DNA from: a virus
Direction: 5' to 3' (one strand)
DNA: 64,000 nucleotides
IMG/VR virus record: IMGVR_UViG_3300020172_001416
Coordinates: 34,788 to 98,787 of that record
The notes under the pieces are model-generated. The model had not been told where the DNA came from. It saw only the letters and a program-made list of their open reading frames with translations, and ran no database searches. Numbering within the stretch: position 1 is the stretch's first letter; each line of letters opens with the position of its first letter. Positions 7,973 through 27,610 of this stretch are shown in pieces. The position numbers and the translations under genes are program-made.

Positions 7973-8884
7973 ATGAATCTAATCTCTCTTTTGTCGCAAA
8001 TATTAGGTGATTTTAAACAGTTTGGAAATGGTGAGCACTATTTCCAATGTCCTTTTTGCCATAATCATAAGAGAAAATTCGCTGTCAATTTGTTAAAAAA
8101 TGTTTTTCATTGTTGGCATTGTGGGGCTAAAGGACGTTCTTTAATAACACTATTTAAGAGACTGGATGTATCTCCTTCCCAAATGAAGGAGCTAAAGTCG
8201 CTTCTGTCCGATGACCAAGTACGGAACTATGTAGAAACAGCGGACGAAGTTACTGACCTTTATCTCCCGCCTGGTTTCAAGCCATTGTGGATTCCATCAA
8301 AAAATCTTCACTATAAGCACGCTGTTCGGTATATGAAGAACAGAGGAATTACGGGATACGATATTATCAGATATCAGATGGGATACACAGTTGATGGTCC
8401 GTATGCGAATCGTATTATTATCCCGTCGTACGATACAAATAACAAGCTAAATTATTTTATCGCCCGCAGTTTCTATGATGGCGGGATGAAATATAAGAAC
8501 CCACCTGTCTCAAAAAATGTGGTGATGTTCGAGAATCAAATTAATTGGAAGATGCCGTTGGTGCTGTGTGAAGGTGTGTTCGATGCTATCGCCATTCGTC
8601 GAAACGCCGTGCCACTTTTGGGTAAGTTCGTACCTAAAAAGCTATTGAAGCAAATGGTGAAGAACAAAGTCAAAGATGTCTATGTCGTACTGGATGATGA
8701 TGCATTAAACGATGCACGTGAAATCGAACAAACGTTAAATACATATGAGATGAATGTAAGGCTGGTAAACCTTGACAAGAAAGACCCTTCGGAGTTAGGT
8801 TTCAAGGATACGTGGGAATGCATCGAACGTGGGTCTGCAACAACATTTAAAGACTATATTGGTGGCAGGTTACAGAATATATGA
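7973..8884 (+). CDS. DnaG-type DNA primase (gp61-like role)
   Basis: 303 residues. An N-terminal zinc ribbon has C26-P-F-C29 and C47-W-H-C50. A TOPRIM domain follows, with the catalytic Glu in LCEGVFDAI (E200) and the acidic cluster VLDDDA (D241-D243). This is the layout of phage primases, which make RNA primers for lagging-strand synthesis together with a replicative helicase. The helicase is not in this window. The gene overlaps the next by ATGA, indicating translational coupling to the Mre11-Rad50 gene. Confidence 0.88.
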   Translation: MNLISLLSQILGDFKQFGNGEHYFQCPFCHNHKRKFAVNLLKNVFHCWHCGAKGRSLITLFKRLDVSPSQMKELKSLLSDDQVRNYVETADEVTDLYLPPGFKPLWIPSKNLHYKHAVRYMKNRGITGYDIIRYQMGYTVDGPYANRIIIPSYDTNNKLNYFIARSFYDGGMKYKNPPVSKNVVMFENQINWKMPLVLCEGVFDAIAIRRNAVPLLGKFVPKKLLKQMVKNKVKDVYVVLDDDALNDAREIEQTLNTYEMNVRLVNLDKKDPSELGFKDTWECIERGSATTFKDYIGGRLQNI

Positions 8885-11800
8885 GAATTGACGTACCATT
8901 TAAGAAGTTACGAACAATCGCACATACCGCAGATATTCACATCCGTCTTTTCAAGCGTCACGAAGAATATCGGGAAGCATTTAATACATTCTACCAGCAA
9001 CTCCGTCAGACAGATTTAACTGACGGGGTTATCCTTGTTGCTGGTGATATACTTCATGCTAAGACGGATATGAGTCCAGAGATGGTGGAACTCGCGTCAG
9101 AATTTCTCCGTAATCTTGCGGACATTGCTCCAACTTTCATCATCGCAGGCAATCACGACCTCAATCTGTCCAATATGAATCGGTTGGATAGTTTGACGCC
9201 GATTATTAAGAATCTGAACCATCCGAATCTCCATTACTTCAAACACTCCGATATCTACCAAGTTGCTGACGTAGATTTCGCAGTATTTTCTATATTAGAT
9301 GACCGTGACCAATGGCCGGTTGTCGAAGATTGTCGTAAGAATGTACGAAAGATTGCATTATACCACGGACCAGTTCACGGCGCACAAACCGATGTCAAGT
9401 ACGTCATCACCAATCGTCACGTAGATGTGACCACATTCGAGGGATATGACGCCGTACTTCTTGGTGATATTCACAAGTATCAAGTATTGCAGGAAAGTAA
9501 TCCCGTCATCGTGTACTCATCGTCGCTTATCCAACAGAACCACGGAGAAACGGTTACTGGTCACGGCTGGTGTCTCTGGAATGTTGAAGAGTGTACACAC
9601 GTATTTAAGGAACTTCCGAACGCATATGGATATTACACACTGGAGTTAGTCGAAGGTAAGATTAACTTTCCAATCGATATGCCGAAGAATGTCCGACTTC
9701 GGTTGTTCACGGGAAACGCTGATACATCACTCATTAAGAAAACGACAGCGGCACTTCGGAAGCGTTACAATGTGATTGAATTGAGCATCAACAAGAATCG
9801 GTTCAATAATTCATCCCCGTCGTATCGTAAAGGAACGCATATCACGACCGATGTAACTAATGTGAACACGCAGAATTCGTTGATTCAAGATTGGATTGAA
9901 CGGAATCACGAAACCGTTGATGATGAATTGATGAAAAAGGTTGTATCCGTCAACAATAAGTTGAACGCCCAAATAAGTCATGAGGACCACTCACGAAATA
10001 TCCATTGGCGTCCGTTGAAGTTCACGTTCTCCAATATGTTCTCGTATGGTGAGAATAACGAGATTGATTTTGAGAATATGCATGGGATTCACGGTATCTT
10101 TGCTCAGAATGCATCTGGGAAGAGTTCATCGATGGATGCTCTTATCTTCTGTCTCTACGACAAGACTCCTCGTGCGTTCCGCGGTGACCATATTATGAAC
10201 AATCGGAAAGATACGTTTGAATGTGAGTTGAAGTTTGAGATTGACCAAGAAACTTATTTCATCCGTCGAACAGGTACACGGAAAAAGACAGGCGATGTCA
10301 AGGTGGACGTTTCGTTCTGGAAGGAACATTCTGATGGAACGCATACTTCGTTGAACGGTGAAGACCGCCGGGATACAAACGCCAATATCCGTAACTATGT
10401 AGGCAGTTATGAGGACTTCGTATTGACCACGTTGAGTAGTCAGACGGCAAACGCCCTATTCATTGACAAGTCACATTCGGAACGGAAGGACTTACTTATC
10501 CAATTTATGGGATTGAATATCTTTGATAAGTTATTTGATACCGCAAACGAGGAGAGTAAGGAAATCTCTGGTGCACTCAAAAAGTTTAAGAAGATTGATT
10601 TCGACCAAACCCTATCGGATACCCAAACCAAGTTAGAAAATGCAAAGGTACAACACGAAATGGTAGAAACTACTATCACGGAAATCAAGGGCGAACGTGA
10701 GGTGTTAGATGGGAAACTTCGTGATTGGCAGACCCAAAAGAAACCCGTCCCGAATATTGAACTAAATTTGGATAAACTGCAACAGAAGTTGGTTGAGACT
10801 AATAAATTAATTACGCAACATACCGAAAGTAGAGCTGACGCCGAAACCAGACTCCAAGAACTTCACTCAACGATTACCGAAAAGACGCAGCAGGTTGTGG
10901 ATGCGAACGTCCCAGAACTTCGTCAATCGGTAGAAGAATATAACAGATTGTCTGCTTTATTCAATAAGGGGACTGCCGCATTAAAGCTGACTACATCAAA
11001 GGTAACGGAGAAGGAAAAGTTCAAGACCAAGTTGGAAAGTTACAAGTATAATCCAGATTGTAATGTCTGCGTAGAAAACAACAAGTCTATCATTGAAGAT
11101 ATGGAGTCTGTCACTCACGAACTTGTTGACTTGTATGAACTTCAGACTAAACAAGAAGATGCAGTAAACGAAATCAAACAGCAGATGGAACCGTTGGTCG
11201 ATAAGGTTAATCTCTGTGCATACTACGAGAAGATACAGAGTGAAGTCCAACAACTCCAGAAGAAGGCAAGTGGATTAGAACTGGATATTCAGAAGTTGAT
11301 TACCAGTATTGAAAAGTGTGACCGTAATCGGGAACAGATTGAGAAGGACATTGAATTACATAAGGTGAACGAAGAAAACATCAAGCACAACAAGACGGTT
11401 GACGAACATATCAGTCACGTTGAATACGATATTAGTGTCAACAAAAAGACGATGGACAAGTTGGAGAAGCAACTTCGGGAACTTCACGGTGAAATTAAGG
11501 TATTAGAGGCTACTAAAACTGATATCCTTAACCAAATCAAGGAAGCAGAAGAACTTGAAGATACTTACGAAGCCTACAAGTATTATATGGAAGCCGTGGG
11601 TCGTGACGGGGTACCATACGAACTGATGTCACGGGCAATCCCGGCGATTGAGTCTGAAATAAATAATATTTTAACACAGATTGTCGAGTTCACCATTTCT
11701 CTCGAAGTGGATGGGAAGAACATTCTTGGGAAGCTTAACTACGACCACGAACGTATTTGGCCGTTGGAAAACTCGTCGGGTATGGAACGATTCATCAGCA

Positions 11801-12045
11801 GTCTCGCCATTCGGGTGGCTCTGTTAAACGCATCCAATCTCCCAAAACCGAACTTTATGATTATTGACGAAGGATTGGGAACACTTGACCCAGAAAACCT
11901 CAGTGCGATGGGAACAATGATGGGTATCCTAAAGTCACAATTCGATTTCCTTATCCTCATCAGTCACTTGGATACCGCTCGGGATATGGTGGATAAGGTA
12001 ATTGAAATCAAACGGGAGGACGGTTTCTCGTATATTAATGTCTAA
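8881..12045 (+). CDS. Fused Mre11-like nuclease and Rad50-like ATPase (gp47-gp46 in one chain)
   Basis: 1054 residues. The N-terminal part is a calcineurin-type phosphoesterase with the Mre11/SbcD motifs: D18-x-H20, G55-D56, G90-N91-H92-D93, a YHGPVHG motif and GDIHK. The second part is Rad50/SbcC-like: Walker A NASGKSS (about 410-416), long coiled coils, a zinc hook C727-N-V-C730, the signature SSGMERF, and Walker B MIIDEGLGTLD (about 993-1003). In T4 these are two proteins, gp47 and gp46, which resect DNA ends for recombination-dependent replication. No stop or frameshift separates the halves here, so a single chain is encoded. UvsX and gp32, its pathway partners, lie at the right end. Confidence 0.92.
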   Translation: MRIDVPFKKLRTIAHTADIHIRLFKRHEEYREAFNTFYQQLRQTDLTDGVILVAGDILHAKTDMSPEMVELASEFLRNLADIAPTFIIAGNHDLNLSNMNRLDSLTPIIKNLNHPNLHYFKHSDIYQVADVDFAVFSILDDRDQWPVVEDCRKNVRKIALYHGPVHGAQTDVKYVITNRHVDVTTFEGYDAVLLGDIHKYQVLQESNPVIVYSSSLIQQNHGETVTGHGWCLWNVEECTHVFKELPNAYGYYTLELVEGKINFPIDMPKNVRLRLFTGNADTSLIKKTTAALRKRYNVIELSINKNRFNNSSPSYRKGTHITTDVTNVNTQNSLIQDWIERNHETVDDELMKKVVSVNNKLNAQISHEDHSRNIHWRPLKFTFSNMFSYGENNEIDFENMHGIHGIFAQNASGKSSSMDALIFCLYDKTPRAFRGDHIMNNRKDTFECELKFEIDQETYFIRRTGTRKKTGDVKVDVSFWKEHSDGTHTSLNGEDRRDTNANIRNYVGSYEDFVLTTLSSQTANALFIDKSHSERKDLLIQFMGLNIFDKLFDTANEESKEISGALKKFKKIDFDQTLSDTQTKLENAKVQHEMVETTITEIKGEREVLDGKLRDWQTQKKPVPNIELNLDKLQQKLVETNKLITQHTESRADAETRLQELHSTITEKTQQVVDANVPELRQSVEEYNRLSALFNKGTAALKLTTSKVTEKEKFKTKLESYKYNPDCNVCVENNKSIIEDMESVTHELVDLYELQTKQEDAVNEIKQQMEPLVDKVNLCAYYEKIQSEVQQLQKKASGLELDIQKLITSIEKCDRNREQIEKDIELHKVNEENIKHNKTVDEHISHVEYDISVNKKTMDKLEKQLRELHGEIKVLEATKTDILNQIKEAEELEDTYEAYKYYMEAVGRDGVPYELMSRAIPAIESEINNILTQIVEFTISLEVDGKNILGKLNYDHERIWPLENSSGMERFISSLAIRVALLNASNLPKPNFMIIDEGLGTLDPENLSAMGTMMGILKSQFDFLILISHLDTARDMVDKVIEIKREDGFSYINV

Positions 12046-12081: not shown

Positions 12082-13890
12082 ATGCCAAAGACTAGAAAGA
12101 CGTTACAATTAAAAAACTTAGCAAAATACGATGTGTTGGTTGAAGATAGGTCAGCCACCTCATCGTATTTTCAAGTAAACCTACCGCAGACTTTTAGTGG
12201 TGGTAGAAATTCGTTTTTATTAGCGGGTTCTCCATTTCTAAAAGCTGGGTCTAGTATTCAAATAGAAATTTTGGATGCGAAAGGACAAACTATATTTCAG
12301 AACCCAGTTCAAAAGTATATACAAGGCAATTCCAGATTGATATCTGTAGAAATTACAGAAAAAACAGCTCCTGGATTTGCTACAGTTATTATTATGGGAA
12401 TAGCCTCTAAGTTGACAACCGGAGAAGCTATACCTTCTAACTGGGAAAAGTCGTATAATGTTCGCTGGTCAACTAGAATTTTGGTTGAACCCAACGCGAG
12501 AAACACTTCCCCACTTGTATTTTTAAATACACCAGTTGTGTTTTCGGAAGAAAAGAGGTTGTATAGTGTGGCAACCTCGTCGTATGTATCCGCGAGTACG
12601 CAGTTCACGGCAAGCTTAACTCCGGTAAAATATTCTAGTTTTCAAATTGGTTATTTGATTAAGGCAGAAGCACCTACGTCATTTTCCGCAGACTATATTG
12701 GCGGGTACATCACGGGGTCGTTGTTGATAAACGGGGTAAGCGCAAGCTTGTATGTACCCATCAATGAAATTTTAAACGATACGACGGCGTTTAGTACAGG
12801 TGAACTTATCAAAACCTCAAACGGTGAAGTTATAGAATCACTATATTTGACAAGTGGTAGCTACTCATCATCAATATTAGGAGCATCGGTGAAAGTGTCA
12901 TCGTCTGCCAAGTTGGTATATAGTAAACTAAGTACCACCGAAGTGAACATACCAATTTCATACGCCAAGCTAAGAATTATTAATCTTAATACGGTTAGTG
13001 GCGAACCATTCAAGTTTAAAGTATCAAGTAGAGTTTCAACGAACATATCCGATTATAAATTCGTTGCAGATACTCCAGTAACTACTAATGATTTATTAGT
13101 AACCAGTTCGATTCGTGGTGATTTATCTATCGGAGACTTTTATACAACACCAACGGCATCAAAAAACTGGTATGCGGATTCGCTACTATCCAGTAGTAAT
13201 CCGATATACACAGTGTCGGGGTCAAAACCGTATTATAATTCATCACTTACGTCTACACCTTTCACACTATCTGTAACTGATGATGTGTTACTACGGTCAA
13301 TTCGGGCAGATGTTCCAACATATAATGACCAAGTATTTTCCGGAAGTGTGTCTGCTAGCGGATATTTTATTGGAAATAAAGAATCTATTACATTATTCCC
13401 AACAACAGAATATACTCTCCAACTTGATGCATTTTACAAAAATTATTCAGGATCAGTAAATTTAACTGGTGTAGACCCGAAGATAGATATTTATATGGTA
13501 GGAGTTAATAACACACTGGTTATTGATAATAATCCACTAGGACAAAAAATAGGTACATTATCTGTAGTAACTGGAGCGGCGTCTCAACGATTCCAACAAA
13601 AACAATTTAACTTCACGCCGGCTATTTCCATAGGAAGTTCGGTTGGTATTCGGTTTGTAGTAAGTAATGGATTTTGGTATTTGTCTAATATTTCATTAAA
13701 ACCAGCCTCAGATAAGTTATTTTCTCCAGATGAAGCACAAGTATTAGTACCAAATACTGAATATTTTAATGAGTTATTAGAGCATAAAGTAGAATTCTTT
13801 GATATTAACAATAATTCAACAGATGTCGCTGTTTCTTCGATACCAACTTTCTTTACTGGTTCGAATATCGACTTGGGTACTCTTCCATGA
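12082..13890 (+). CDS. Virion structural protein, unknown role
   Basis: 602 residues, Ser/Thr-rich, almost entirely beta-type sequence with no catalytic motif, membrane segment or coiled coil. The N-terminus is basic (MPKTRKTLQLKNL). Low-complexity beta stretches such as LTSGSYSSSILGASVKVSSS resemble other tail proteins in the window. A putative late promoter precedes it and it overlaps the next gene by ATGA. Probably a tail or fibre-attachment protein; identity not known. Confidence 0.65.
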   Translation: MPKTRKTLQLKNLAKYDVLVEDRSATSSYFQVNLPQTFSGGRNSFLLAGSPFLKAGSSIQIEILDAKGQTIFQNPVQKYIQGNSRLISVEITEKTAPGFATVIIMGIASKLTTGEAIPSNWEKSYNVRWSTRILVEPNARNTSPLVFLNTPVVFSEEKRLYSVATSSYVSASTQFTASLTPVKYSSFQIGYLIKAEAPTSFSADYIGGYITGSLLINGVSASLYVPINEILNDTTAFSTGELIKTSNGEVIESLYLTSGSYSSSILGASVKVSSSAKLVYSKLSTTEVNIPISYAKLRIINLNTVSGEPFKFKVSSRVSTNISDYKFVADTPVTTNDLLVTSSIRGDLSIGDFYTTPTASKNWYADSLLSSSNPIYTVSGSKPYYNSSLTSTPFTLSVTDDVLLRSIRADVPTYNDQVFSGSVSASGYFIGNKESITLFPTTEYTLQLDAFYKNYSGSVNLTGVDPKIDIYMVGVNNTLVIDNNPLGQKIGTLSVVTGAASQRFQQKQFNFTPAISIGSSVGIRFVVSNGFWYLSNISLKPASDKLFSPDEAQVLVPNTEYFNELLEHKVEFFDINNNSTDVAVSSIPTFFTGSNIDLGTLP

Positions 13891-16700
13891 AATCAGCAAT
13901 AGATATTTTATTTGAACAAGCTCAATCTGAACAGTTTCATATAAACGAGTTCAATCGGATGCTTCATGCGTTAGATGAAAAGAAACGAAAGAAGTGTACC
14001 ATCTATCCGACTGATTCTGGAAATCAAATACGTAAAAAGTGTAAGCAAGCCAAGGTGTGGGGATTACACTACGCTCCGGTTTGGGATAAGTATATGAAGG
14101 ACAACCCGCCTGCAGAAATTCCAACAAGTACAGATGGTGGAGTAGACGCAGGGGATGCTGGAGACGCCGGAGATGCAGCAGGCGGAGACGGAGCCGGAGT
14201 TGGTGAAATGAAAGGTCTAGCTGGGTCAAAATTCACATATCCGATGTCAAGCGGTCCAGACGATGACTATCAACTTAAACCAAAAAACGAAGCAGGTTCC
14301 AGCACAGAACGTGTTCGTCGGTATTATCGCCGTCATCCAGAAAAAGTTCGTGCATATCTAAAAAAGACACAAGATGATCGTGTTGCTCGTAATCGTGACA
14401 GACGTAAGGCAGTTAAAAAACACGGCAAAGCTAAGATGAAAAATCACGATGTGCATCATCCAAACGGTGCACAAAATGGTAATTGGAAATTAGCAAAGAA
14501 AGACCACGGCCGGGATAAGAAGAACGAAAATATTGAATACGTCTATCTGTCAGAATTAGCAGAGGGGCTTGTACCAAATGGTAGTTGGACACTCATTTAC
14601 GAAGGTGGTGCCGCAGGACATATGGCGCACCCATACGAAGATGATTCACTTTCATTTACAGACGTAAAAGATATGGTTACCCGTGGATTGGTTGGTGATT
14701 TGGGAGCAGAAGAACCCGTCACTGAAAAACTTGACGGTCAAAATATTATGTTCACCGTGCGCGACGGTCGTGTTTATTTCGCTCGTAATAAGGGACAAGT
14801 CAAGAACAAAGGTAAGAACGCATTAGATACCGCCGGCATTCGTCAAATGTTTGCTGGCCGTGGGGATATTGAAAAGGCATTTACTGGGGCAGCAGAAGAT
14901 TTACAAAGTGCAATTGATGCACTCCCAGAAGATGAACGAAGTAAGATGTTTGCCGACGGGTCGAAGTTTATGAATGTTGAAATCGTTTTTCCAGACACTA
15001 AGAATGTTATCCCGTATGACAAGTCAGTATTGGTGTTTCACGGAACCGTTGAATATGACGACGAAGGTAACGAAATCAAGCGGTCAGTCGAAGATGGCCG
15101 TGAATTATCTGACCAACTTACTAAGGTTAATGCGCAAAAGCAAAAAACATTTGGTATCTCTGGTCCAAAGACAATCAGTTTCAGCGATGCACAGACAGTA
15201 GAAAATAAAAATGCATTGAAGAAAATCGGTGCACGTATTTCTCAATTACAGAAAGAATATGGATTGGACGATAAGTCCACTATTGAAGATTATAAGACAA
15301 AGTGGTGGGAAGATAAACTTATTCAAATTTCCCAAGAAAATGGTTTGGAATTTACTAAACAAGAATTTGAAGGTATGACTCGTCGCTGGGCATTGGGTGA
15401 TAAGAAGTTCAAAGTCTCCGACATTGAAGACCCAGAAAAGAAAAAGTGGTTCCGTCAATTTGAAGGAAGTGAATTAAAAGCCGCACAACGCGAAGCAGTA
15501 CGTCCGCTGGAAAGTGTATTCTTGCAAGTGGGTGCTATGTCACTTAAGCGGGTTACTGATTTCTTATCAGCAAATAATCCAGAACTTGCGAAGAAGTTGA
15601 AGGCAGAAGTGTTAGATACAATTAAGCAAATTCAGCAAACGGGTGATGCAAACAAATTAGCTGCGTTACAAATTCAATTGGAACGCTTGCAAGATATCGG
15701 AATGGATAATATTGTTCCAACCGAAGGTATGGTCTTTATGTACAAGGGCAAGCCATACAAGTTCACCGGAACATTCGCTCCAGTAAATCAAATTTTAGGT
15801 ACGTTGAAGTTTGATAAGGGCGAAGCAAAGTTAGTTGATGAACCAAAAGAAACACCAAAAACAGAACCAACCACAAAACCAGCTCAAGGGGAACAACGTA
15901 CTGTCGCTATCTTTACCGGACGTTTCCAACCATTCCACGCTGGTCACTATAGTATCTACAAGTCAATGGTGGATAAGTTTGGTAAGGAAAACGTATACAT
16001 CGCAACAAGTGACAAGACCGAAGCTGGGAAGTCTCCATTCAGATTCAACGATAAGAAGCAGATTATGACCCAGATGTTTGATATTCCAGAAGATATGGTG
16101 GTTCAAGTCAAGAATCCATACGCACCAAAAGAAATTCTTGAAAAATTACCACCAGAAACCGTATACGTTACTGCCGTCAGTCAAAAGGACGCGGAGCGTT
16201 TAGGTGGAAAGTATTTCCAACCATACGATGAAAAGGGTCCAAAGAAAGGATTTGCCGACCAAGGATATTTTATGGTCGCTCCAGAATTGAAGGTTGATAT
16301 TGATGGGAAGAATATTAGTGGAACACAACTTCGAGCAATTTTTGGTAATCCAAATATCACCGATGAAGTCAAGCAAGAAATCTTCGCAAAGGTATACGGT
16401 AAGTTTGACCAAGATATCTTCGATAAGGTTATAAAAACCACAACCAAATCAGAAGAAGAATTGAAAATTACCAACAAGTTTACAGAACCAACAAAAGGAA
16501 AAGTAATGCCGGTAACTCCAGCACAAAAGCAACCAAAGGACAAGCCAAATGTAGATACTAATACAAGTAATGACGCATCTCAATACCAACCAGGCGAAAC
16601 GTGGCAAACCGCCGGTGGTAACTTTGGCGGTAAAAATAAGAAGGGTCAAATTAAGTACTTCGGTACAGAAGACAAGGCACAGATATTCGCAACCAAGTGA
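13887..16700 (+). CDS. Multidomain ligase-like nucleotidyltransferase fused to NMNAT/cytidylyltransferase-like domain
   Basis: 937 residues. An N-terminal region begins MKSAIDILFEQ and continues with a Gly/Asp-rich linker, then a basic segment with an HNH-like DVHHPNG (188-194)...NGNW...HGRDK pattern. A ligase-type core follows: motif I E-K281-L-D-G284, E365 in a motif III-like position, E613-G-M-V-F as motif IV and K625 in a motif V position, as in ATP-dependent RNA/DNA ligases. A Pro/Thr linker leads to a nucleotidylyltransferase domain with GRFQPFHAGH (678-687) and ISGTQLR, as in NMN adenylyltransferases. Possible roles are nucleic-acid end repair and NAD synthesis. The N-terminus resembles a capsid-targeting peptide, so the protein may be packaged. 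Domain calls are good; biological role is inference. Confidence 0.8.
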   Translation: MKSAIDILFEQAQSEQFHINEFNRMLHALDEKKRKKCTIYPTDSGNQIRKKCKQAKVWGLHYAPVWDKYMKDNPPAEIPTSTDGGVDAGDAGDAGDAAGGDGAGVGEMKGLAGSKFTYPMSSGPDDDYQLKPKNEAGSSTERVRRYYRRHPEKVRAYLKKTQDDRVARNRDRRKAVKKHGKAKMKNHDVHHPNGAQNGNWKLAKKDHGRDKKNENIEYVYLSELAEGLVPNGSWTLIYEGGAAGHMAHPYEDDSLSFTDVKDMVTRGLVGDLGAEEPVTEKLDGQNIMFTVRDGRVYFARNKGQVKNKGKNALDTAGIRQMFAGRGDIEKAFTGAAEDLQSAIDALPEDERSKMFADGSKFMNVEIVFPDTKNVIPYDKSVLVFHGTVEYDDEGNEIKRSVEDGRELSDQLTKVNAQKQKTFGISGPKTISFSDAQTVENKNALKKIGARISQLQKEYGLDDKSTIEDYKTKWWEDKLIQISQENGLEFTKQEFEGMTRRWALGDKKFKVSDIEDPEKKKWFRQFEGSELKAAQREAVRPLESVFLQVGAMSLKRVTDFLSANNPELAKKLKAEVLDTIKQIQQTGDANKLAALQIQLERLQDIGMDNIVPTEGMVFMYKGKPYKFTGTFAPVNQILGTLKFDKGEAKLVDEPKETPKTEPTTKPAQGEQRTVAIFTGRFQPFHAGHYSIYKSMVDKFGKENVYIATSDKTEAGKSPFRFNDKKQIMTQMFDIPEDMVVQVKNPYAPKEILEKLPPETVYVTAVSQKDAERLGGKYFQPYDEKGPKKGFADQGYFMVAPELKVDIDGKNISGTQLRAIFGNPNITDEVKQEIFAKVYGKFDQDIFDKVIKTTTKSEEELKITNKFTEPTKGKVMPVTPAQKQPKDKPNVDTNTSNDASQYQPGETWQTAGGNFGGKNKKGQIKYFGTEDKAQIFATK

Positions 16701-16706
16701 GGTTAT

Positions 16707-17345
16707 ATGTTTAAAAATGAAGAAGCATTAAATGATGTTCGTAGAAAAGTTGCAGAAAAAATGAAGAAGGATGGTGACAAGTTAATATTTGGATGGCGAG
16801 GAGAGCCAGAACCCACTAGAAAGGAAGGCGATGAGTGGGTAGATGTTAATGGAAAGAAATGGACAATCAAGGGTGGTATCCGCCAATCCGTTACAAAGTT
16901 GGATTCTGCAAAGACTCCCTATTGGTGTCCAAAGTGCAGTAAGCCAATGAATCATAGATTTGATATTAAATTTTGGAGAATCCGTGGTCATTGCTTTGAT
17001 TGTAACATTAAAGCTGAAACGGAACTTCGTCGTCAAGGAAAATGGCAAGAATTTGAACACAAGACATTACTGAGAAATTACATAGCTAAACTCAGAGACA
17101 CTATTGCAGAACTTCAAGACTATCACGATACCGTCACCAAACCAGAATTCGTGAACGCTGACGAAACAAAAATTTTGATGATTGAAAAGTGGGACGTTGA
17201 TATTGAAAAAGTAAAGTCTGACCTTCGGGCAGATATTGCGAATTTGCAAAAAATGTTAGATGATACAATTACAGAATTTGGTACTGGAGAAGATAATGAA
17301 ACGAAAAACGAAGTCGTTACTGGAACGGACGAAGTTAATAGCTGA
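16707..17345 (+). CDS. Zinc-ribbon protein, unknown role
   Basis: 212 residues. A four-cysteine zinc ribbon is formed by C74-P-K-C77 and C96-F-D-C99. The region before it is Trp/Lys-rich, and the C-terminal half (from about 105) is helical and probably coiled coil. It follows the ligase-NMNAT gene by 6 nt and its end overlaps the membrane-protein gene. No family is certain; the zinc ribbon suggests nucleic-acid or protein binding. Confidence 0.65.
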   Translation: MFKNEEALNDVRRKVAEKMKKDGDKLIFGWRGEPEPTRKEGDEWVDVNGKKWTIKGGIRQSVTKLDSAKTPYWCPKCSKPMNHRFDIKFWRIRGHCFDCNIKAETELRRQGKWQEFEHKTLLRNYIAKLRDTIAELQDYHDTVTKPEFVNADETKILMIEKWDVDIEKVKSDLRADIANLQKMLDDTITEFGTGEDNETKNEVVTGTDEVNS

Positions 17346-17971: not shown

Positions 17972-19555
17972 ATGAACGCGACAGCACAACAGTTACGTGA
18001 AAAAATTAAAGAAGAATTTAAGAAATGTGCAGTAGACCCCGCATACTTCTTATCACGATACTCATACATTCAACACCCGATTCGTGGTCGGGTGTTGTTT
18101 GATTTATACAAATATCAAGAAAACGCATTAACTGACTTTGAACAGAATGATTATAATATCGTTCTCAAAGGTCGTCAGATTGGTATTTCCACGTTAGTCG
18201 CGGGATACTCTCTGTGGTTAATGTTATTTCACAAAGATAAAAATATCCTCGTTATCGCAACCAAACAAGAAACCGCAAAGAACTTGGTCACTAAGGTAAA
18301 GTTCATGCATCAAAATCTTCCAGTTTGGTTACGGGGACAGGTCACGACAGATAATAAACTTTCTTTACAATTCTCCAACGGGTCACAGATTAAGGCAGTT
18401 GCGTCAAGTCCAGATGCAGGTCGTTCTGAAGCACTTTCTCTGTTGATTCTGGACGAATGTGCGTTCATCGATGACGCAGATATCATCTGGACCGCAGCAT
18501 CCAGTACGTTATCTACGGGTGGTAAAGCAATCCTATTATCCACTCCAAACGGCGTTGGTAACTTCTTCCATAAGATGTGGCAGCAAGCAGAGGCCAAGAC
18601 CAACGGATTTAATACTATATTATTAGATTGGAGAGTTCATCCAGAACGTGACCAAGCATGGCGTGACCGTCAGACAGAATTGATGGGCGAAATGCAATCG
18701 GCACAAGAACACGATGCATCATTCATTTTTTCGGGTAATACTGTAGTTCCGCCGGAAATCCTTGAATTCTATAAAAAGACGTATGTTCAAGAGCCGATGG
18801 AAAAGACAGGGTTTGATGGAAACTTCTGGATTTGGGAATATCCACATCCATCCAAGTCATATATTGTCGCCGCTGACGTTTCCCGCGGCGACGGCGAGGA
18901 CTATTCAACCTTTCACGTAATTGATGTAGAATCGTCCACCCAAGTTGCGGAATATAAGGGGAAAATTGAAACGAAGGCATTCGGAAATATGTTGGTGTCA
19001 ATTGCCACGCAATATAATGACGCCCTCCTTATTCCGGACAACAGTAGTATTGGGTGGAACGCTATCCAGCAAATTATCGACCGTGGGTACAAAAATCTCT
19101 TTTATATGTCCAGAGATTTACAATATGTGGACGTAGAACACCAAATATCTGGAAAATATTATAAAGAAGAAAAGAGCATGGTACCTGGATTTATGATTTC
19201 GCAACGGACTCGTCCATTGATTATCGCCAGATTAAAGGAATATATGTTGGAAACCTCATTCACCATTCGTTCCCCACGTATGATTGCAGAACTGGAAACG
19301 TTTATTTGGAAGAATGGTCGGCCGGAAGCGTTGTCGGGGTACAACGACGACTTAGTGTTAGCGCTTTGTATCGGATTATGGGTACGTGACACCGCTCTCA
19401 GATTACGTCAAGAAGGGATAGAGTTGACCAAAATAGCGATTGATAAAGCAAAATATCAACTCGGAACCATGGTGTATAGTTCCAATAATATGAACCAGAA
19501 CCCGTATGAGATGCAAATTGGTCAAGAAAAGGAAAATTTACGGTGGTTACTATAA
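17972..19555 (+). CDS. Terminase large subunit (gp17-like)
   Basis: 527 residues. The ATPase domain has Walker A K66-G-R-Q-I-G-I-S73 and Walker B LLILD161-E162, followed by the coupling motif LLSTPNG. The C-terminal RNase H-like nuclease begins at VAADVSRGDGEDYS, giving the first metal-binding Asp. This motor cuts concatemeric DNA and pumps it into the prohead through the portal (23150 gene). No small terminase is recognisable next to it. Length is somewhat shorter than T4 gp17 (610). Confidence 0.93.
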   Translation: MNATAQQLREKIKEEFKKCAVDPAYFLSRYSYIQHPIRGRVLFDLYKYQENALTDFEQNDYNIVLKGRQIGISTLVAGYSLWLMLFHKDKNILVIATKQETAKNLVTKVKFMHQNLPVWLRGQVTTDNKLSLQFSNGSQIKAVASSPDAGRSEALSLLILDECAFIDDADIIWTAASSTLSTGGKAILLSTPNGVGNFFHKMWQQAEAKTNGFNTILLDWRVHPERDQAWRDRQTELMGEMQSAQEHDASFIFSGNTVVPPEILEFYKKTYVQEPMEKTGFDGNFWIWEYPHPSKSYIVAADVSRGDGEDYSTFHVIDVESSTQVAEYKGKIETKAFGNMLVSIATQYNDALLIPDNSSIGWNAIQQIIDRGYKNLFYMSRDLQYVDVEHQISGKYYKEEKSMVPGFMISQRTRPLIIARLKEYMLETSFTIRSPRMIAELETFIWKNGRPEALSGYNDDLVLALCIGLWVRDTALRLRQEGIELTKIAIDKAKYQLGTMVYSSNNMNQNPYEMQIGQEKENLRWLL

Positions 19556-19610: not shown

Positions 19611-19943
19611 ATGAAGGCAGAAGATATTCGTCGTATAATTCGTGAAGAATTAGAAGCAGCAATCAAATCACGAATGGAAAAAGAAGAAATCTGTGAAGGT
19701 GAGGGATGTTTAGACGAAAAGTCCGTCCCACAACCGTATAATCGTAAGACTGCTCGTAAAATGAGTAAGTCTCAAGTTGACCTTCGTAAGAAGATTGGTC
19801 AAGCTATGATGCGTGACGAAAAGAAAGTCAGTAAGTTCAGAAAGAAGTATGGTGATGAATGGAAAGATTATCTTTGGGCAGCAGCATCCTCGGCCGCATT
19901 CAGACAAAGTGGTTCTACGAAGAGCGACGACAAACGGAAGTAA
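19611..19943 (+). CDS. Small basic head-module protein
   Basis: 110 residues, highly charged. The N-terminal helix (MKAEDIRRIIREELEAAI) contains I-R-E, which may be a prohead-protease site. The C-terminal half is Lys/Arg-rich with a KKYGDEWKDYLWAAASSAAF segment. First of nine small genes between terminase and portal. May be an internal or scaffold-associated protein; no family recognised. Confidence 0.6.
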   Translation: MKAEDIRRIIREELEAAIKSRMEKEEICEGEGCLDEKSVPQPYNRKTARKMSKSQVDLRKKIGQAMMRDEKKVSKFRKKYGDEWKDYLWAAASSAAFRQSGSTKSDDKRK

Positions 19944-19945
19944 TA

Positions 19946-20836
19946 ATGCAATATAAGTTATTTTTTAATTTTGAGCAATATAAGCATTCACATAAGCGTC
20001 ACGATCCACCTGGGTCAGAAGATGCGGATGTAAACAATGATGGTAAGATTGATAAAAATGACAAGTATATAATGGCAAAACGAAGACTGTATAAGCAATA
20101 TCAATCGGCACAAAAGAGTAACAAAGAAACAGACTTTTCTACACCGAAGTTGGAGACTGATATGATTAGATTAATGGGGCTTGTTGAAGTACCGTCCATA
20201 ACACCACTTAAAGAAGAATCACACGAAGAACCAACACCAGCTCCAACTGCAGCTGTTGATAAAAAGTCGTTGGTTGGAATGAAATTAAAGAAGCTCAAGG
20301 GAATGCAAATGACCCCAGACCAAGAAAAGAAGGTTGATGAGCTTTTGGTTCAAATGGAAGAATTAACTGCTGGTCAGAAGAAACTTGACGTTGATGGAGA
20401 CGGCAAGATTGAAGGTGATGACTTAGCAAAACTTCGTGCTGGTAAGAAAGCTGATGAAGCAGTTGGGGAAGATCATGAAGTATCAATGGGAATTAAGACC
20501 CTCGACTCTATCATCAAACACGCAACTGAATTAAAGGGTAAGCTTGGAATGGAAGAAAAGGACATTCCAGCATGGATTCAAGACCATATCGCTGTTGCTG
20601 AAAACAATCTTGACCAAGCAAATACTGGATATCACGAATACGGCGAAGAAGAAAAGACCGACGCCCCAGTAGACCAAGATATGGCAGCAATGAAGGAAGA
20701 AGTCAGTGAAGCAGCTCCAGAAGGTTGGGAAAAAACTGTTCTCGCTATGAAGAAGCATAAGGAAATTGATAATCCTTGGGCACTTGCACATTGGATGAAG
20801 AAGAAAGGATATCACTCACAAAAAAAGGAAGAATAA
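19946..20836 (+). CDS. EF-hand-like calcium-binding protein of the head module
   Basis: 296 residues from ATG 19946 (GGAAG at 19936-19940; the upstream in-frame ATG at 19859 lies inside the previous gene). Two 12-residue EF-hand/dockerin-type loops are visible: D28-V-N-N-D-G-K-I-D-K-N-D39 and, at about 148-159, D-V-D-G-D-G-K-I-E-G-D-D. Both have acidic residues at positions 1, 3 or 5, 9 and 12 and Gly at 6. The rest is acidic and helical, ending in a short ALAHWMKKKGY motif also seen in other phage proteins. It ends in TAATG overlap with the next gene. Function unknown; binding calcium or a partner is plausible. Confidence 0.65.
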   Translation: MQYKLFFNFEQYKHSHKRHDPPGSEDADVNNDGKIDKNDKYIMAKRRLYKQYQSAQKSNKETDFSTPKLETDMIRLMGLVEVPSITPLKEESHEEPTPAPTAAVDKKSLVGMKLKKLKGMQMTPDQEKKVDELLVQMEELTAGQKKLDVDGDGKIEGDDLAKLRAGKKADEAVGEDHEVSMGIKTLDSIIKHATELKGKLGMEEKDIPAWIQDHIAVAENNLDQANTGYHEYGEEEKTDAPVDQDMAAMKEEVSEAAPEGWEKTVLAMKKHKEIDNPWALAHWMKKKGYHSQKKEE

Positions 20837-21198
20837 TGGAATCCGTCGCAAAATTCATTTCAGTGCTTCTCGCTAGCCGGGAACAAGCACATATCTTCCA
20901 TCTTCAAACCCAATCATATGCCCAACATAAGGCATTACAAGGGTATTATGAAGGTATCGTGGACTTAATTGACACTTATGTAGAATCATATCAAGGTCGG
21001 TATGGTATTTTGAAGGGATATAAGCCAACTACCCAAATCTTTGAAGATGATTCAACCCTTCGATATTTTGCAGGTTTATTGTCATATGTGGATAACGCTC
21101 GTAAAGATTTACCACAAGACGGTGAACTTAATAACACGATTGATGAAATTTCAGGGTTAATTTCCAGTACACATTACAAGCTTAAATTTTTAAAGTAA
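20836..21198 (+). CDS. DUF5856-like helical protein
   Basis: 120 residues from ATG 20836, which shares its first base with the upstream stop codon. The sequence SREQAHIFHLQTQSYAQHK followed by YYEGIVDLIDTYVESYQGRYG resembles a phage family I remember as DUF5856, a four-helix, ferritin/Dps-like arrangement with conserved His, Gln and Glu. Whether it binds metal is not known. It lies in the terminase-portal interval among other small conserved genes. Confidence 0.65.
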   Translation: MESVAKFISVLLASREQAHIFHLQTQSYAQHKALQGYYEGIVDLIDTYVESYQGRYGILKGYKPTTQIFEDDSTLRYFAGLLSYVDNARKDLPQDGELNNTIDEISGLISSTHYKLKFLK

Positions 21199-21200
21199 AA

Positions 21201-21509
21201 ATGAGATACAGAGACTTTTTTCCAGAAGGATATTCCGATGGGGCGGTATTCAACCAAACCAAAGGAGATTTTGGTCAAGAACAACCAGAAGAAATGCCTT
21301 CCACTGACCCAAAAGATTTAGCAATCCGTACCGCACGTATCAGTGATATCTTAGAACGGAATATCCCAACTAGCCCAGACAAGTGGGCAAAGGCTAAGGC
21401 AGCAGCACGTTCAAAGTTCAAGGTCTATCCATCTGCATACGCTAACTTATGGGCAGCAAAGAAATATAAGAGTATGGGTGGTGGTTGGAAGAAGGGAAAA
21501 AATGATTAA
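21201..21509 (+). CDS. Small conserved head-module protein
   Basis: 102 residues. The C-terminal half carries AKAKAAARSKFKVYPSAYAN and GGGWKKGK, a motif that recurs in small phage and giant-virus proteins and is probably a basic nucleic-acid-binding element. The N-terminus (MRYRDFFPEGYSDG) contains F-P-E followed by Gly, compatible with a prohead-protease-type site. Its end overlaps the next gene by 8 nt. Confidence 0.6.
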   Translation: MRYRDFFPEGYSDGAVFNQTKGDFGQEQPEEMPSTDPKDLAIRTARISDILERNIPTSPDKWAKAKAAARSKFKVYPSAYANLWAAKKYKSMGGGWKKGKND

Positions 21510-21837
21510 GTTAATGGATATCTTACTTGAAGAAGAACAACCTCATCAAAAAGAGATGATTGACGGGGTTGTTGATATGCTTAATCAAGTAAAAGATATC
21601 GATAATAGAAAAGAAATGGCAATGGATAGATTAAAAGATTTTAAACAAAGTAAAATTGAAATCAATCCAAAAGAGTTTATGGCAAGAGTTGGGTTAGATT
21701 CCATAGATGAAAAGTGGACAAAGAAATATAAGAAGTCTATCGATTGTAGTAATCCAAAAGGTTTTAGTCAACGAGCACATTGTGCTGGTCGCAAAAAGCG
21801 AAAAAGTGGCGGCATAACTAAATCAAAACCAGTATGA
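21502..21837 (+). CDS. Small basic protein with capsid-targeting-like N-terminus
   Basis: 111 residues from ATG 21502 (the in-frame ATG at 21478 lies within the upstream gene). It begins MIKLMDILLEE, with L-L-E as a possible cleavage site, in the style of T4 internal proteins. The C-terminus has CSNPKGFSQRAHCAGRKKRK, a Cys-containing basic motif recurrent in phages. Likely a DNA-associated internal head protein; this is inference from the N-terminal peptide, charge and place. Confidence 0.6.
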   Translation: MIKLMDILLEEEQPHQKEMIDGVVDMLNQVKDIDNRKEMAMDRLKDFKQSKIEINPKEFMARVGLDSIDEKWTKKYKKSIDCSNPKGFSQRAHCAGRKKRKSGGITKSKPV

Positions 21838-22169
21838 CACGACTTTCCGACTTATTAGTTGAAGTATCTATTGACCTTGACGAAAAGTATAAAACCAAGG
21901 GAAGTCTTGGTAAGTGGCTTCGTCAAAAGTGGGTTGATATTTCTCGTAAAGACCCAAAGACCGGCAAGCATCCACCGTGTGGAGCTTCTGCTGGTAAGGG
22001 AGAACGTGGTTCATCTGGGTCACGTAAATATCCAAAGTGTCGTCCAGCACGTTCTGCGGCAGCAATGAGTAAGGGTGAAAAGCGGTCAGCAGTCACTCGT
22101 AAACGTAAAGCAGGAAATCCGGGTGGGAAACCAACAATGGTATCCACGCTTAAGAAGGAAGAAGAATAA
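21834..22169 (+). CDS. Small very basic protein with capsid-targeting-like N-terminus
   Basis: 111 residues. Begins MTRLSDLLVEV, where L-V-E fits the gp21-type cleavage rule. The rest is strongly basic (GSLGKWLRQKWVDISRKD, then CGASAGKG, YPKCRPARSAAAMSKGEK), a family I remember as DUF5872 and related, seen in phages and giant viruses. It overlaps the previous gene by ATGA and the next by TAATG. A packaged DNA-binding protein is a reasonable hypothesis. Confidence 0.65.
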   Translation: MTRLSDLLVEVSIDLDEKYKTKGSLGKWLRQKWVDISRKDPKTGKHPPCGASAGKGERGSSGSRKYPKCRPARSAAAMSKGEKRSAVTRKRKAGNPGGKPTMVSTLKKEEE

Positions 22170-22585
22170 TGGAAAATATTACTGAAGCCTGTTGGGAAGG
22201 ATATAAGCAAGTTGGGATGAAAGACAAAAGTGGCAAAATGGTCCCAAACTGCGTTCCTATCAATGAAGACGATATTATTGAAGATTATTGTCCACGGTGC
22301 TTGGCAATGCAAATTTTACGGTCGGCTACAGAACCTCTTGAAGAGGCCGAATACCACGGTCGTAAAGTTCCTCTTGGAAAACCAATGCGGGGTGACGTTA
22401 AAAAGTTCAAAGTATTCGTAAAAGACCCAAGCACTGGTAACGTTAAGAAGGTCAACTTTGGTGACAAGACGATGAGAATTAAGAAGTCTAATCCAGCTCG
22501 TCGTAAGTCATTCCGTGCAAGACACAACTGCGCAAACCCAGGTCCACGTACTAAGGCAAGATACTGGTCTTGCCGGAAGTGGTAA
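22169..22585 (+). CDS. Basic Cys-containing conserved head-module protein
   Basis: 138 residues. An N-terminal segment ACWEGYKQVGMK...VPNCVP is followed by a CPRC pair and a basic C-terminal domain with KVPLGKPMRGDVKKFKVFVK and RARHNCANPGPRTKARYWSC. Both motifs recur in conserved proteins of T4-like environmental phages. The paired cysteines suggest metal binding or disulphides. Function not known; located with other basic small proteins near the portal. Confidence 0.65.
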   Translation: MENITEACWEGYKQVGMKDKSGKMVPNCVPINEDDIIEDYCPRCLAMQILRSATEPLEEAEYHGRKVPLGKPMRGDVKKFKVFVKDPSTGNVKKVNFGDKTMRIKKSNPARRKSFRARHNCANPGPRTKARYWSCRKW

Positions 22586-22586
22586 T

Positions 22587-22802
22587 ATGAAAGAAAAAGT
22601 CTCACGGAAGATTTCCGACGCTGTATTAAAGAAAATGGGTTATACATTCGACCCTAAAGAATTTCATATGGGAATGAATGTAGAAATGGAACATAAAGAT
22701 GTTACGAATGGAAACGTGGTAATGACGGCAAAAATTGCCGCGGCCCACTTGACAGAGAACCCAAAATATTATACATTACTTAAGAAGTATGTGGAGAAAT
22801 AA
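22587..22802 (+). CDS. DUF5661-like small protein
   Basis: 71 residues from ATG 22587, directly after the upstream TAA (the longer in-frame start lies inside the previous gene). FHMGMNVEMEHKDVTNG with AAHLTENPKYYTLLKK matches, from memory, the DUF5661 pattern found in phages and giant viruses. Function unknown. Confidence 0.6.
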   Translation: MKEKVSRKISDAVLKKMGYTFDPKEFHMGMNVEMEHKDVTNGNVVMTAKIAAAHLTENPKYYTLLKKYVEK

Positions 22803-22803
22803 A

Positions 22804-23139
22804 ATGAGTACAAAGTTAAAGGACTTATTGTCAGAAAACGTAGAAAATCGCGTTAGTTTAACGCGTATTGAAGCTATTTTAGAAAATTTGGCACCACAAT
22901 TAAGTGAAGCCGAACAAAACAAATTGGCTGGCGCCTATGTTGAATTAAAGACATTAGCAACAGCACTAAACGAAACTCCATATACTATCTTCAATCACGA
23001 CCACTGGAAGTTATTAAAGATGGTATTGGTAGGCAAGGTCGCTGAATTACGACTTGTTCTTGAAGATATCGCAGAAGATAATAAAGAAATCGACTTCTTC
23101 CCAATTATGAAGGCGGTCGATTTAATTCTTACTTACTAA
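22804..23139 (+). CDS. Small helical protein with capsid-targeting-like N-terminus
   Basis: 111 residues from ATG 22804. It begins MSTKLKDLLSEN; the LLSE/N junction is identical to a candidate maturation site at residue 60 of the major capsid protein (29203 gene). The rest is helical and acidic with no known motif. Likely a prohead-associated protein processed by the 26460 protease, by inference. Confidence 0.6.
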   Translation: MSTKLKDLLSENVENRVSLTRIEAILENLAPQLSEAEQNKLAGAYVELKTLATALNETPYTIFNHDHWKLLKMVLVGKVAELRLVLEDIAEDNKEIDFFPIMKAVDLILTY

Positions 23140-26459: not shown

Positions 26460-27047
26460 ATGAAGAACCTATTAGTTGAATACAACGTTATCGAATACGG
26501 TAAAGACCTTCTAGTTGAAGCAGCCGATGTTACTAAGCCATTAATGTTAAAGAATGTACTTCTTCAACGTGCTGAAGCAAAGAATCAAAATGGGCGTATT
26601 TATCCTCGGGAAATTCTTTCGAGAGAAGCAGGACTATACAAAGAAAATTTCGTTGTACAACGCCGAGCACTTGGGGAACTCGACCATCCAGAAAGTCCAG
26701 TTGTTAACTTAAAGAATGTATGCTGTAACGTCACCGACCTTTGGTTTGAAGGTCAAGACGTTCGCGGAAATATCGAAATCCTTTCAACCCCATCTGGCAA
26801 TATCGTTCGTGAACTTATCAAGAACAATATTCGTCTCGGTGTCTCATCACGTGGTATGGGGTCAGTTCGTCAAATGGGCGAAAGTACGGTAGAAGTACAA
26901 GACGATTTCAGTCTCATCTGTTTCGATATCGTCAGTAACCCAAGTACTCACGGCGCTTTCATCAATGAAAACACTAAGAGTCAAATCATTACCCCATATT
27001 CACGTATCGATTCACTTGTATACGATTTCTTAAGTGAAGTAAAATGA
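26460..27047 (+). CDS. Prohead core protease (gp21-like)
   Basis: 195 residues from ATG 26460; the longer in-frame start at 26439 lies inside the previous gene. The herpes-assemblin-like fold is indicated by the catalytic His in LGELDHPES (H76) and Ser in RLGVSSRGMGS (S129 or S130). In T4 this enzyme cuts scaffold, capsid and internal proteins at [L/I]-x-E sites once the prohead is complete. It begins MKNLLVE, itself a possible self-processing site. Several proteins in this window carry matching sites near their N-termini. Confidence 0.9.
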   Translation: MKNLLVEYNVIEYGKDLLVEAADVTKPLMLKNVLLQRAEAKNQNGRIYPREILSREAGLYKENFVVQRRALGELDHPESPVVNLKNVCCNVTDLWFEGQDVRGNIEILSTPSGNIVRELIKNNIRLGVSSRGMGSVRQMGESTVEVQDDFSLICFDIVSNPSTHGAFINENTKSQIITPYSRIDSLVYDFLSEVK

Positions 27048-27610
27048 AATTAGCGAAGGAATTTGTTAAATTTACTGTAAAAGAATTAGGATTAAAATCA
27101 CTACCTAAGAGTATCAAATTCGAAGGTGATAATTATTCTGCTCAGTATTTAACATTTGGTACATACAACCCTTCTACCGATGAAGTTGTTGTTGTTAAGG
27201 GGCAACGACATCCCGTCGATGTTCTTCGTACATTAGCACATGAATTAGTTCATCACAAGCAACGTGAAGATGGTCAAGAATTAAATGGTGAAGATGGGTC
27301 AAATATTGAAAATGAAGCAAACGCAAAGGCTGGTGAATTGATGAGAAAGTTTAGAACAGTTCGCCCAGAAATATTTAATGTTGGTCCTTGGGGATTTCAT
27401 ACAAATATGGAAAACAATAAGATTGAGAAGATTTTACACGTTGCTAAGACGGGTGAACCAGAAAAGATTGATGAACAGTACGTTGATGGGTTTACCGCAA
27501 AATTATTGGTGACGGTGGCTCACAAACTTTCCCCAGAAAATAGAAAGAAGTTTTATAATGAATCGATTGGTGATATGGTCACCCTCGCATATAAATTAGT
27601 TACTCGGTAA
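27044..27610 (+). CDS. Putative zinc metallopeptidase (HExxH)
   Basis: 188 residues. The motif LAH66-E-L-V-H70-H is an HExxH zinc site, and a downstream NIENEANAKAGELM helix could supply the third ligand, as in ImmA/IrrE or SprT-like families. The upstream part (YNPSTDEVVVVKGQRH) looks like the strand before the active helix in those families. It overlaps the prohead-protease gene by ATGA, suggesting coupled translation and perhaps a role in head maturation. Substrate unknown. Confidence 0.65.
   Translation: MKLAKEFVKFTVKELGLKSLPKSIKFEGDNYSAQYLTFGTYNPSTDEVVVVKGQRHPVDVLRTLAHELVHHKQREDGQELNGEDGSNIENEANAKAGELMRKFRTVRPEIFNVGPWGFHTNMENNKIEKILHVAKTGEPEKIDEQYVDGFTAKLLVTVAHKLSPENRKKFYNESIGDMVTLAYKLVTR

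Follow-up and report, generated by a model that had tools for sequence, protein, structure and literature searches.

A viral protein that couples an RNA-ligase-type domain to a nucleotidylyltransferase domain behind a T4-type leader sequence

One open reading frame (ORF) in a 64,000-base stretch of DNA from a T4-like virus joins two enzyme domains for whose conserved partnership the open literature searched gives no description: an RNA-ligase-type nucleotidyltransferase domain (LIG) and a nucleotidylyltransferase domain of the HIGH superfamily (NMN). The stretch, called the window below, is part of the 98,787-base virus record IMGVR_UViG_3300020172_001416 of IMG/VR. Both domains are more than chance resemblances, and together they form a fixed core around which other modules come and go. 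We favour, at close to even confidence, the reading that the protein is a prohead-processed, injected RNA-repair cargo in which NMN serves the pathway of LIG. Of the original prediction, which had combined ligase, nucleotidylyltransferase and HNH elements with a packaging-type N-terminus and a possible supply of NAD, the ligase fold, the nucleotidylyltransferase core and the N-terminus stood, whereas the HNH element found no support and the supply of NAD was weakened; a counter-defence role, also part of that prediction, is plausible.

The ORF, a 937-aa chain with E280-K281-L282-D283-G284 and GRFQPFHAGH where the original prediction had placed them, overlaps its upstream gene by 4 bases and is laid out in the order leader, N-terminal region, HNH-like basic segment, LIG, NMN and C-terminal module. 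ARAGORN found no tRNA genes in the window. The features of the ORF are as follows:

13887-16700, + strand: candidate precursor ORF, 937 aa, ATG start
13887-13916, + strand: predicted T4-type capsid-targeting leader MKSAIDILFE (L8, E10)
14298-14522, + strand: basic HNH-like segment, aa ~138-212, a weak assignment
14595-14603, + strand: I237-Y-E239, predicted prohead-protease site directly 5' of LIG
14604-15812, + strand: LIG, RNA-ligase-type nucleotidyltransferase domain, aa 240-642
14724-14744, + strand: LIG motif I, E280-K-L-D-G-Q-N286
15891-16532, + strand: NMN, HIGH-superfamily nucleotidylyltransferase domain, aa 669-882
15918-15947, + strand: NMN signature GRFQPFHAGH, aa 678-687
16317-16334, + strand: NMN signature S-G-T-Q-L-R (SxTxxR), aa 811-816
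16563-16697, + strand: C-terminal module PGETW...YFGT...FATK, present in 12/40 representatives

Relatives were drawn from IMG/VR (23 loci, plus the best 80 of 510 matches), genome contigs (3 loci) and Mel-JY01. These gave 101 ORF entries with a full LIG and NMN, many of them repeats from a contig retrieved two times; removal of LIG domains more than 93% identical left 40 representatives, all of them required to hold both domains. For the pairing itself, 77 distinct LIG ORFs were recounted without requiring NMN: 75 carry NMN in the same ORF (the best 80 of 510 IMG/VR matches included), as do 42 of 43 once near-duplicates are removed. Of the 77, two lack it. One is a 281-aa fragment in L084, produced by a frameshift, with NMN in the remainder; the other is the LIG of LR756500, which stands alone and has as its next ORF a nucleotidylyltransferase whose GRFQPFTLGH was noted by eye. 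This neighbouring ORF was missed by an ordinary search and scored 39 bits with the cyanophage-type and 21 bits with the window-type profile in a one-sequence search. Domain order among the 40 representatives is LIG-NMN in 35 and NMN-LIG in 5, and LR756508 likewise holds an NMN-LIG fusion.

The modules that accompany this core in the 40 representatives are the HNH-like segment (24), an RVNP repeat (23), a metallopeptidase-like module (12), the C-terminal module (12), a ParB-like module, so labelled by eye (10), the N-terminal region (9) and PGDYG (3); in L020, PGDYG scores above its Pfam cut-off and the peptidase match below its own. One 2051-aa LIG-NMN protein (L082:5944-12096) has about 940 aa separating NMN from the metallopeptidase-like module, and CTP_transf_like is its only Pfam match at E<=0.05. 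Another ORF, of 1909 aa (L106:829-6555), carries NMN and LIG together with PF01743 (PolyA_pol, E 1.5e-29) and PF12627 (PolyA_pol_RNAbd), parts of a CCA-adding enzyme, in what is a single case; PF01743 is absent from the nine records searched, the window's own included. The contig of this ORF was binned as Flavobacteriales, but phage terminase and portal matches surround it. Two further LIG-NMN contigs, L107 and L105, were binned in a Euryarchaeota and a Pelagibacteraceae metagenome-assembled genome; they are probably viral DNA within the bins, and their host is uncertain. An AAA_33 kinase is matched in 6/14 records and is not matched in the window's own, fragmentary record.

Such chains resemble polyvalent proteins, which, in the part of the source drawn on here, likewise hold several disparate domains and lie near virion genes (PMC5512222), and the metallopeptidase and (by eye) ParB-like modules of the relatives are of the polyvalent type. 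They differ in that LIG and NMN here form a fixed core. The main text of that paper, as far as it was drawn on here, names RNA ligases only as not seen with 2H domains and does not contain the word "adenylyltransferase" (PMC5512222). The basic segment ahead of LIG exists as originally predicted, and its HNH identity was rejected: the triad and profile match had no support in Pfam, the PDB or phage records, and the middle Asn varies, leaving aa ~138-212 as a look-alike only. An Rnl2 with an N-terminal HNH, reviewed with CCA-adding enzymes among the RNA-repair functions of jumbo phages in the part of the review used here (PMC7824862), offers a similar arrangement, from which the window protein differs in its unsupported HNH and its extra NMN domain.

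In the NMN domain, aa 675-816 match PF01467 with 29.9 bits, where the curated cut-off is 21, and a profile search of PDB sequences retrieved the archaeal NMN adenylyltransferase (NMNAT) 1f9a (E 3e-8). By fold comparison (VIA), NMN is closest to NadM (2qjt, Z 11.6; 2qjo, 11.0) and PPAT (10.8), which tie under the VIA rule, followed by NadD (10.1); Foldseek alone ranked E. coli NadD first (E 9e-3). These matches bear out the Rossmann nucleotidylyltransferase core expected around residue 678. The S and R of SxTxxR are invariant in 39/39 sequences, and the first H of HxGH is not (L024). NMN is like NadM/NMNAT in GRFQPFHxGH, in SxTxxR and in its top VIA match, but it stays far below the cut-offs of the NCBIfam NMN adenylyltransferase equivalog models (best 33.2 of 449 bits), has no Pfam match at E<=1 in the window protein to a C-terminal Nudix domain of the NadM type and, in nearly all records searched, lacks a NadV partner. 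A two-domain model of LIG-NMN is of medium quality (pLDDT 72.7, pTM 0.44) and supports no domain arrangement.

The scarcity of NadV bears on what NMN might do. Every phage with NadM is said to carry NadV too in the part of the survey drawn on here (PMC9503650), and NadV was found in 2/2 NadM control phages. It was found in 1/20 records with LIG or DUF6267, a cyanophage protein taken up below (0/9 and 1/11, eight of the nine being possibly incomplete contigs), and neither NadV nor NAPRTase was found in the record that holds the window, which is a fragment. Because NadV is missing in 19/20 of these records, ordinary nicotinamide salvage is unlikely, and the suggested supply of NAD is weakened accordingly. 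The same absence, set against the NadM controls, fits an explanation in which the two domains carry out one coupled reaction: NMN would supply LIG with its adenylyl donor, NAD+ or a related dinucleotide, either by making it or by regenerating it from the NMN that is set free, or the pair would build a dinucleotide-type 5' RNA cap. A near-constant pair, in either order or as neighbouring genes, is what one pathway predicts. We nevertheless hold such coupling to be unlikely, since no NAD+-binding Ia domain was recognised with Pfam and an NMNAT-fed ligase would have no obvious gain over the use of ATP. Less probable still is that replenishing NAD+ is the main job, with an injected NMNAT acting against NAD-depleting defences and LIG as a separate cargo. 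Phage restoration of NAD+ is known from the part of the literature drawn on here (PMC9503650), and both sequence and fold of NMN are of the NMN adenylyltransferase type (PPAT being tied in fold), but, besides the lack of NadV, an independent cargo should sometimes vanish, whereas the recount, made from the LIG side, found NMN nearly always retained.

The packaging-type leader has good support. The window protein begins MKSAIDILFE/Q, so that L8 and E10 match the T4 processing positions, and this start fits a T4 capsid-targeting sequence, as originally predicted. The prediction had taken Alt as the model; according to the part of the review used here, T4 IPIII requires residues 8 and 10 of its leader for processing, and the Alt propeptide comprises 7 residues (PMC9026906), for which reason IPIII is the better comparison. 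In that account, the T4 internal proteins and Alt have a capsid-targeting leader, are cleaved by gp21 and are ejected (PMC9026906). The likeness extends to the gp21-type protease and the head-gene neighbourhood; the difference lies in the cargo, here a ligase and a nucleotidylyltransferase with an internal cleavage-type site before LIG. The neighbours in question are as follows, the counts of loci coming from sets in which several loci are truncated:

16707-17345, + strand: downstream gene with Cys pairs, in 38/40 loci
17972-19555, + strand: terminase large subunit, in 37/40 loci
26460-27047, + strand: head maturation protease of the T4 gp21 type (phrog_207, E 2.7e-50), the predicted processing enzyme
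27044-27610, + strand: lone metallopeptidase-like gene beside the prohead protease, the same module being fused in 12/40 LIG-NMN relatives
29203-30774, + strand: major capsid protein (phrog_138)

The major capsid protein itself has MSDVMNLISE and GLLE/GLKG stretches of the same processing type (read by eye). The proteins encoded one after another at 19611-23139 (+) are short and in many cases basic; several have starts of the MxxxxxLLxE type (for example MIKLMDILLE, MTRLSDLLVE and MSTKLKDLLSE), and these may be further packaged proteins. On the other side of the ORF, 8881-12045 (+) encodes a 1054-aa chain with a Mre11/gp47-like nuclease and a Rad50/gp46-like ATPase with a CxxC hook (read by eye), parts that are separate annotated genes in Synechococcus phage S-PM2.

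An [L/I]-x-E near the protein start occurs in 11/19 proteins of the head region (13.8-30 kb; the window protein included, starts set by rule, some matches, such as that in terminase, perhaps being chance) and in 2/36 elsewhere (Fisher p 3.4e-5), against shuffled expectations of 5.0 and 3.9, respectively. The second site lies before the GG that opens LIG, where position -3 is I or L in 40/40 representatives and -1 is E in 39/40; position -2 takes 11 residues, the upstream sequence falls into 19 classes, and the background is 0.0077 per position. When LR756500 and LR756508 are included, the motif stands directly 5' of LIG in 41/43; it fails in L107, which reads LLLM, and in LR756508, where the GG is missing as well. 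In LR756500, MKFLKSYEEFLNENLILE forms the leader of the stand-alone LIG ahead of GG, ending LILE/GG; L082 begins with a short stretch ending LLNE; and the window protein has an additional LAE/G at aa 224-226. That leader and sites are coincidental, and the enzyme a late cytoplasmic one, we consider improbable: the motif is short, shuffling alone gives about five of the 19 head-region matches and two relatives lack the site before LIG, but neither the excess over the rest of the window nor a motif fixed at one exact border across such varied upstream contexts is readily reconciled with chance.

On the ligase side, K281, D283, G284, E365, E613 and K625 are invariant in 40/40 representatives, down to 35% identity, as are E280, N286, R300, N301, K302, H385 and G614. 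The KxDG motif I is followed in order by motifs III, IV and V in all 40. An AlphaFold2 model built from 39 sequences (pLDDT 89.7, pTM 0.85) places the motifs on strands 40-60, 121-151 and 375-387 (model numbering) and shows that motif IIIa is separated from motif IV by a long helical insert. In Foldseek searches of the PDB, RNA ligases rank first (2vug, E 4e-3, then 8uce, 8rbj and 2c5u), the leading matches being the archaeal RNA ligase 2vug, a Palaeococcus RNA ligase, Trl1 and T4 Rnl1; none reaches E<=0.001. VIA, in which even models that match nothing clearly attain best Z values of 7 to 8, gave Z 9.3 for a Naegleria RNA ligase, 8.9 for Trl1, 8.8 for T4 Rnl1 and 8.0 for Rnl2. RNA ligases fill its first 26 rows, and further down the RNA ligases 2vug (6.7) and 8uce (7.0) tie with the DNA ligases 6imj (6.7) and 6rar (7.1), the last of which we take to be a DNA ligase. 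The modelled fold is thus nearer to RNA than to DNA ligases, in agreement with the ligase fold foreseen around K281.

In sequence searches, Pfam finds nothing at E<=1 on aa 240-642 of the window protein except a sub-threshold Nif11 match, and a PDB sequence search with the LIG profile returned weak, unrelated-looking matches (best E 0.23). Across nine records, PF09414 (RNA_ligase) meets LIG motif I as the sole match at E<=0.01 in eight, each time below cut-off; in Mel-JY01, the ninth, a different gene scores best and LIG comes second (E 0.015). LIG stays below every curated cut-off, the PF09414 gathering cut-off included. In the window protein a 26-aa linker separates LIG from NMN, and in Mel-JY01 and LR756500 (loci L024 and L108) the chain ends just after motif V; the OB domain that follows motif V in DNA ligases is therefore absent in all three. 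Because LR756500, LR756508 and Mel-JY01 have other RNA_ligase matches outside LIG, LIG is not simply their repair ligase. LIG shares with Rnl1, Rnl2 and Trl1 the nucleotidyltransferase fold, motifs I, III, IV and V and the lack of an OB domain, but differs in the long IIIa-IV helical insert, the conserved HxxHPxED start, the invariant H385 and its score below the PF09414 cut-off. Repair of DNA ends, with the ligase sealing nicks in the entering phage genome, is the least probable explanation of all, for the superfamily shared with DNA ligases (Z 6.7-7.1) and a basic HNH-like segment ahead of LIG weigh little against the uninterrupted run of RNA ligases at the head of the VIA rows, PF09414 as the family that meets motif I, the missing OB domain and the unsupported HNH.

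A comparable pair exists in T4-like cyanophages. In Foldseek searches of BFVD, the LIG model matched viral models annotated as cytidyltransferase-like, among them a 591-aa protein of phage S-PM2 (E 9e-6, 12% identity, TMq 0.45, rmsd 10.2), which by its length is taken to be S-PM2d138. This protein joins DUF6267 (PF19782, phrog_455) to a domain with GRFNPPTTGH, which the NMN profile matches at E 5e-10. PF19782 matches 9/9 cyanophage members, and a search with S-PM2d138 matched 522 of 50,697 phage records; in 201 the match spans at least 80% of the query and in the rest a part of it. Among 89 DUF6267 loci (80 kept of 583 IMG/VR matches, plus nine phages), NMN is fused in 3, all close to S-PM2, lies within 300 bases in 46 and on the same strand 447-2567 bases off in 21; in 10 it is absent, and 9 loci break off too early. 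The pair of DUF6267 and a cytidyltransferase is common in cyanophages; S-CRM01, MA01 and S-CAM7 have a DUF6267 gene and no NMN match in the stretch fetched. Elsewhere, Klebsiella phage Muenster has a nucleotidyltransferase without a LIG-sized neighbour, and in PA5oct the genes around a cytidyltransferase match are annotated as structural or kelch-like; this phage also has a LIG-like BFVD protein (E 1e-3).

LIG and DUF6267 are alike in having KxDG and EGxV in the same order, an H-x-x-H start, a VFH-like motif and a partner nucleotidylyltransferase, which in DUF6267 is fused (S-PM2) or nearby. The first conserved His is at residue 5-9 in 8/9 cyanophage DUF6267 proteins (the ninth is annotated 22 residues longer), and the predicted cut would put the corresponding His of LIG at residue 6, about the same position. 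By contrast, the window protein has no PF19782 match at E<=1, and DUF6267 lies outside the head cluster in S-PM2, P-HM1 and S-CRM01. PF09414 has no match at E<=0.05 in any of the nine cyanophages. An hhalign comparison of LIG with the nine cyanophage sequences is collinear at the HxxH start and KxDG (E 0.072, probability 0.8%); with 86 sequences the alignment spans 31 columns and is no longer in register, and its E value of 0.085 lies within the range of 20 column-shuffled controls (0.0024-0.85). Homology by sequence is thus unsupported; fold and motif order suggest the relation. Among DUF6267 N-termini, 18/25 have no extension and 7/25 one of roughly ten residues. One of the latter, L130, ends its extension in L-V-E (MQGFQDFLVE, then KNTHLEHLED), and a leader may, judging from this start, have arisen in that branch too.

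If the RNA-repair reading is right, the leader MKSAIDILFE would carry the precursor into the prohead, where the gp21-type protease would cut at [L/I]-x-E after E10 and E239, and possibly after E226, releasing a LIG-NMN enzyme that starts GGAAGHMAHPYED. This enzyme would be ejected along with the DNA; LIG would adenylylate K281 and seal breaks in RNA, the likeliest substrate being host tRNA cleaved by ribonucleases of defence systems or in the course of takeover, and NMN, as an enzyme of the NMNAT/PPAT type, would work in the pathway of LIG and not in nicotinamide salvage. The CCA-adding enzyme parts in the ORF of L106 speak for an RNA-repair context. Counted against the reading are that this fusion is single, that L107 and LR756508 lack the site before LIG, that LIG is below cut-offs and its Z values for RNA and DNA ligases tie in places, that the window's record has no AAA_33 match, that Mel-JY01, LR756500 and LR756508 have further RNA_ligase matches, and that DUF6267 lies outside the head cluster with mostly unextended N-termini.

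The LIG-NMN pair is not described in the open-access literature searched, and the open PMC literature searched does not mention DUF6267, phrog_455 or "cytitidyltransferase". Within these bounds, the near-constant pair, its setting in a protease-processed precursor and the assignment of an RNA-ligase fold look new. A broader proposal, which we regard as rather doubtful, is that T4-like and jumbo phages have a single RNA-end system, ancient and unnamed, made up of two enzymes: LIG or DUF6267 and its nucleotidylyltransferase partner. One lineage would have turned this system into a protease-matured, injected RNA-repair kit that acts before phage gene expression and takes on further cargo such as a CCA-adding enzyme, and the partner would make or recycle the adenylyl donor of the ligase, not metabolic NAD+.

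The predicted cut sites make the precursor directly testable by virion proteomics. If the favoured reading is true, an RNA ligase would reside inside the virion, and tRNA cut by defences could be mended before phage genes are expressed. The finding also suggests a testable function for DUF6267, a common cyanophage protein of unknown function, and points to a partnership of nucleotidylyltransferase and ligase.
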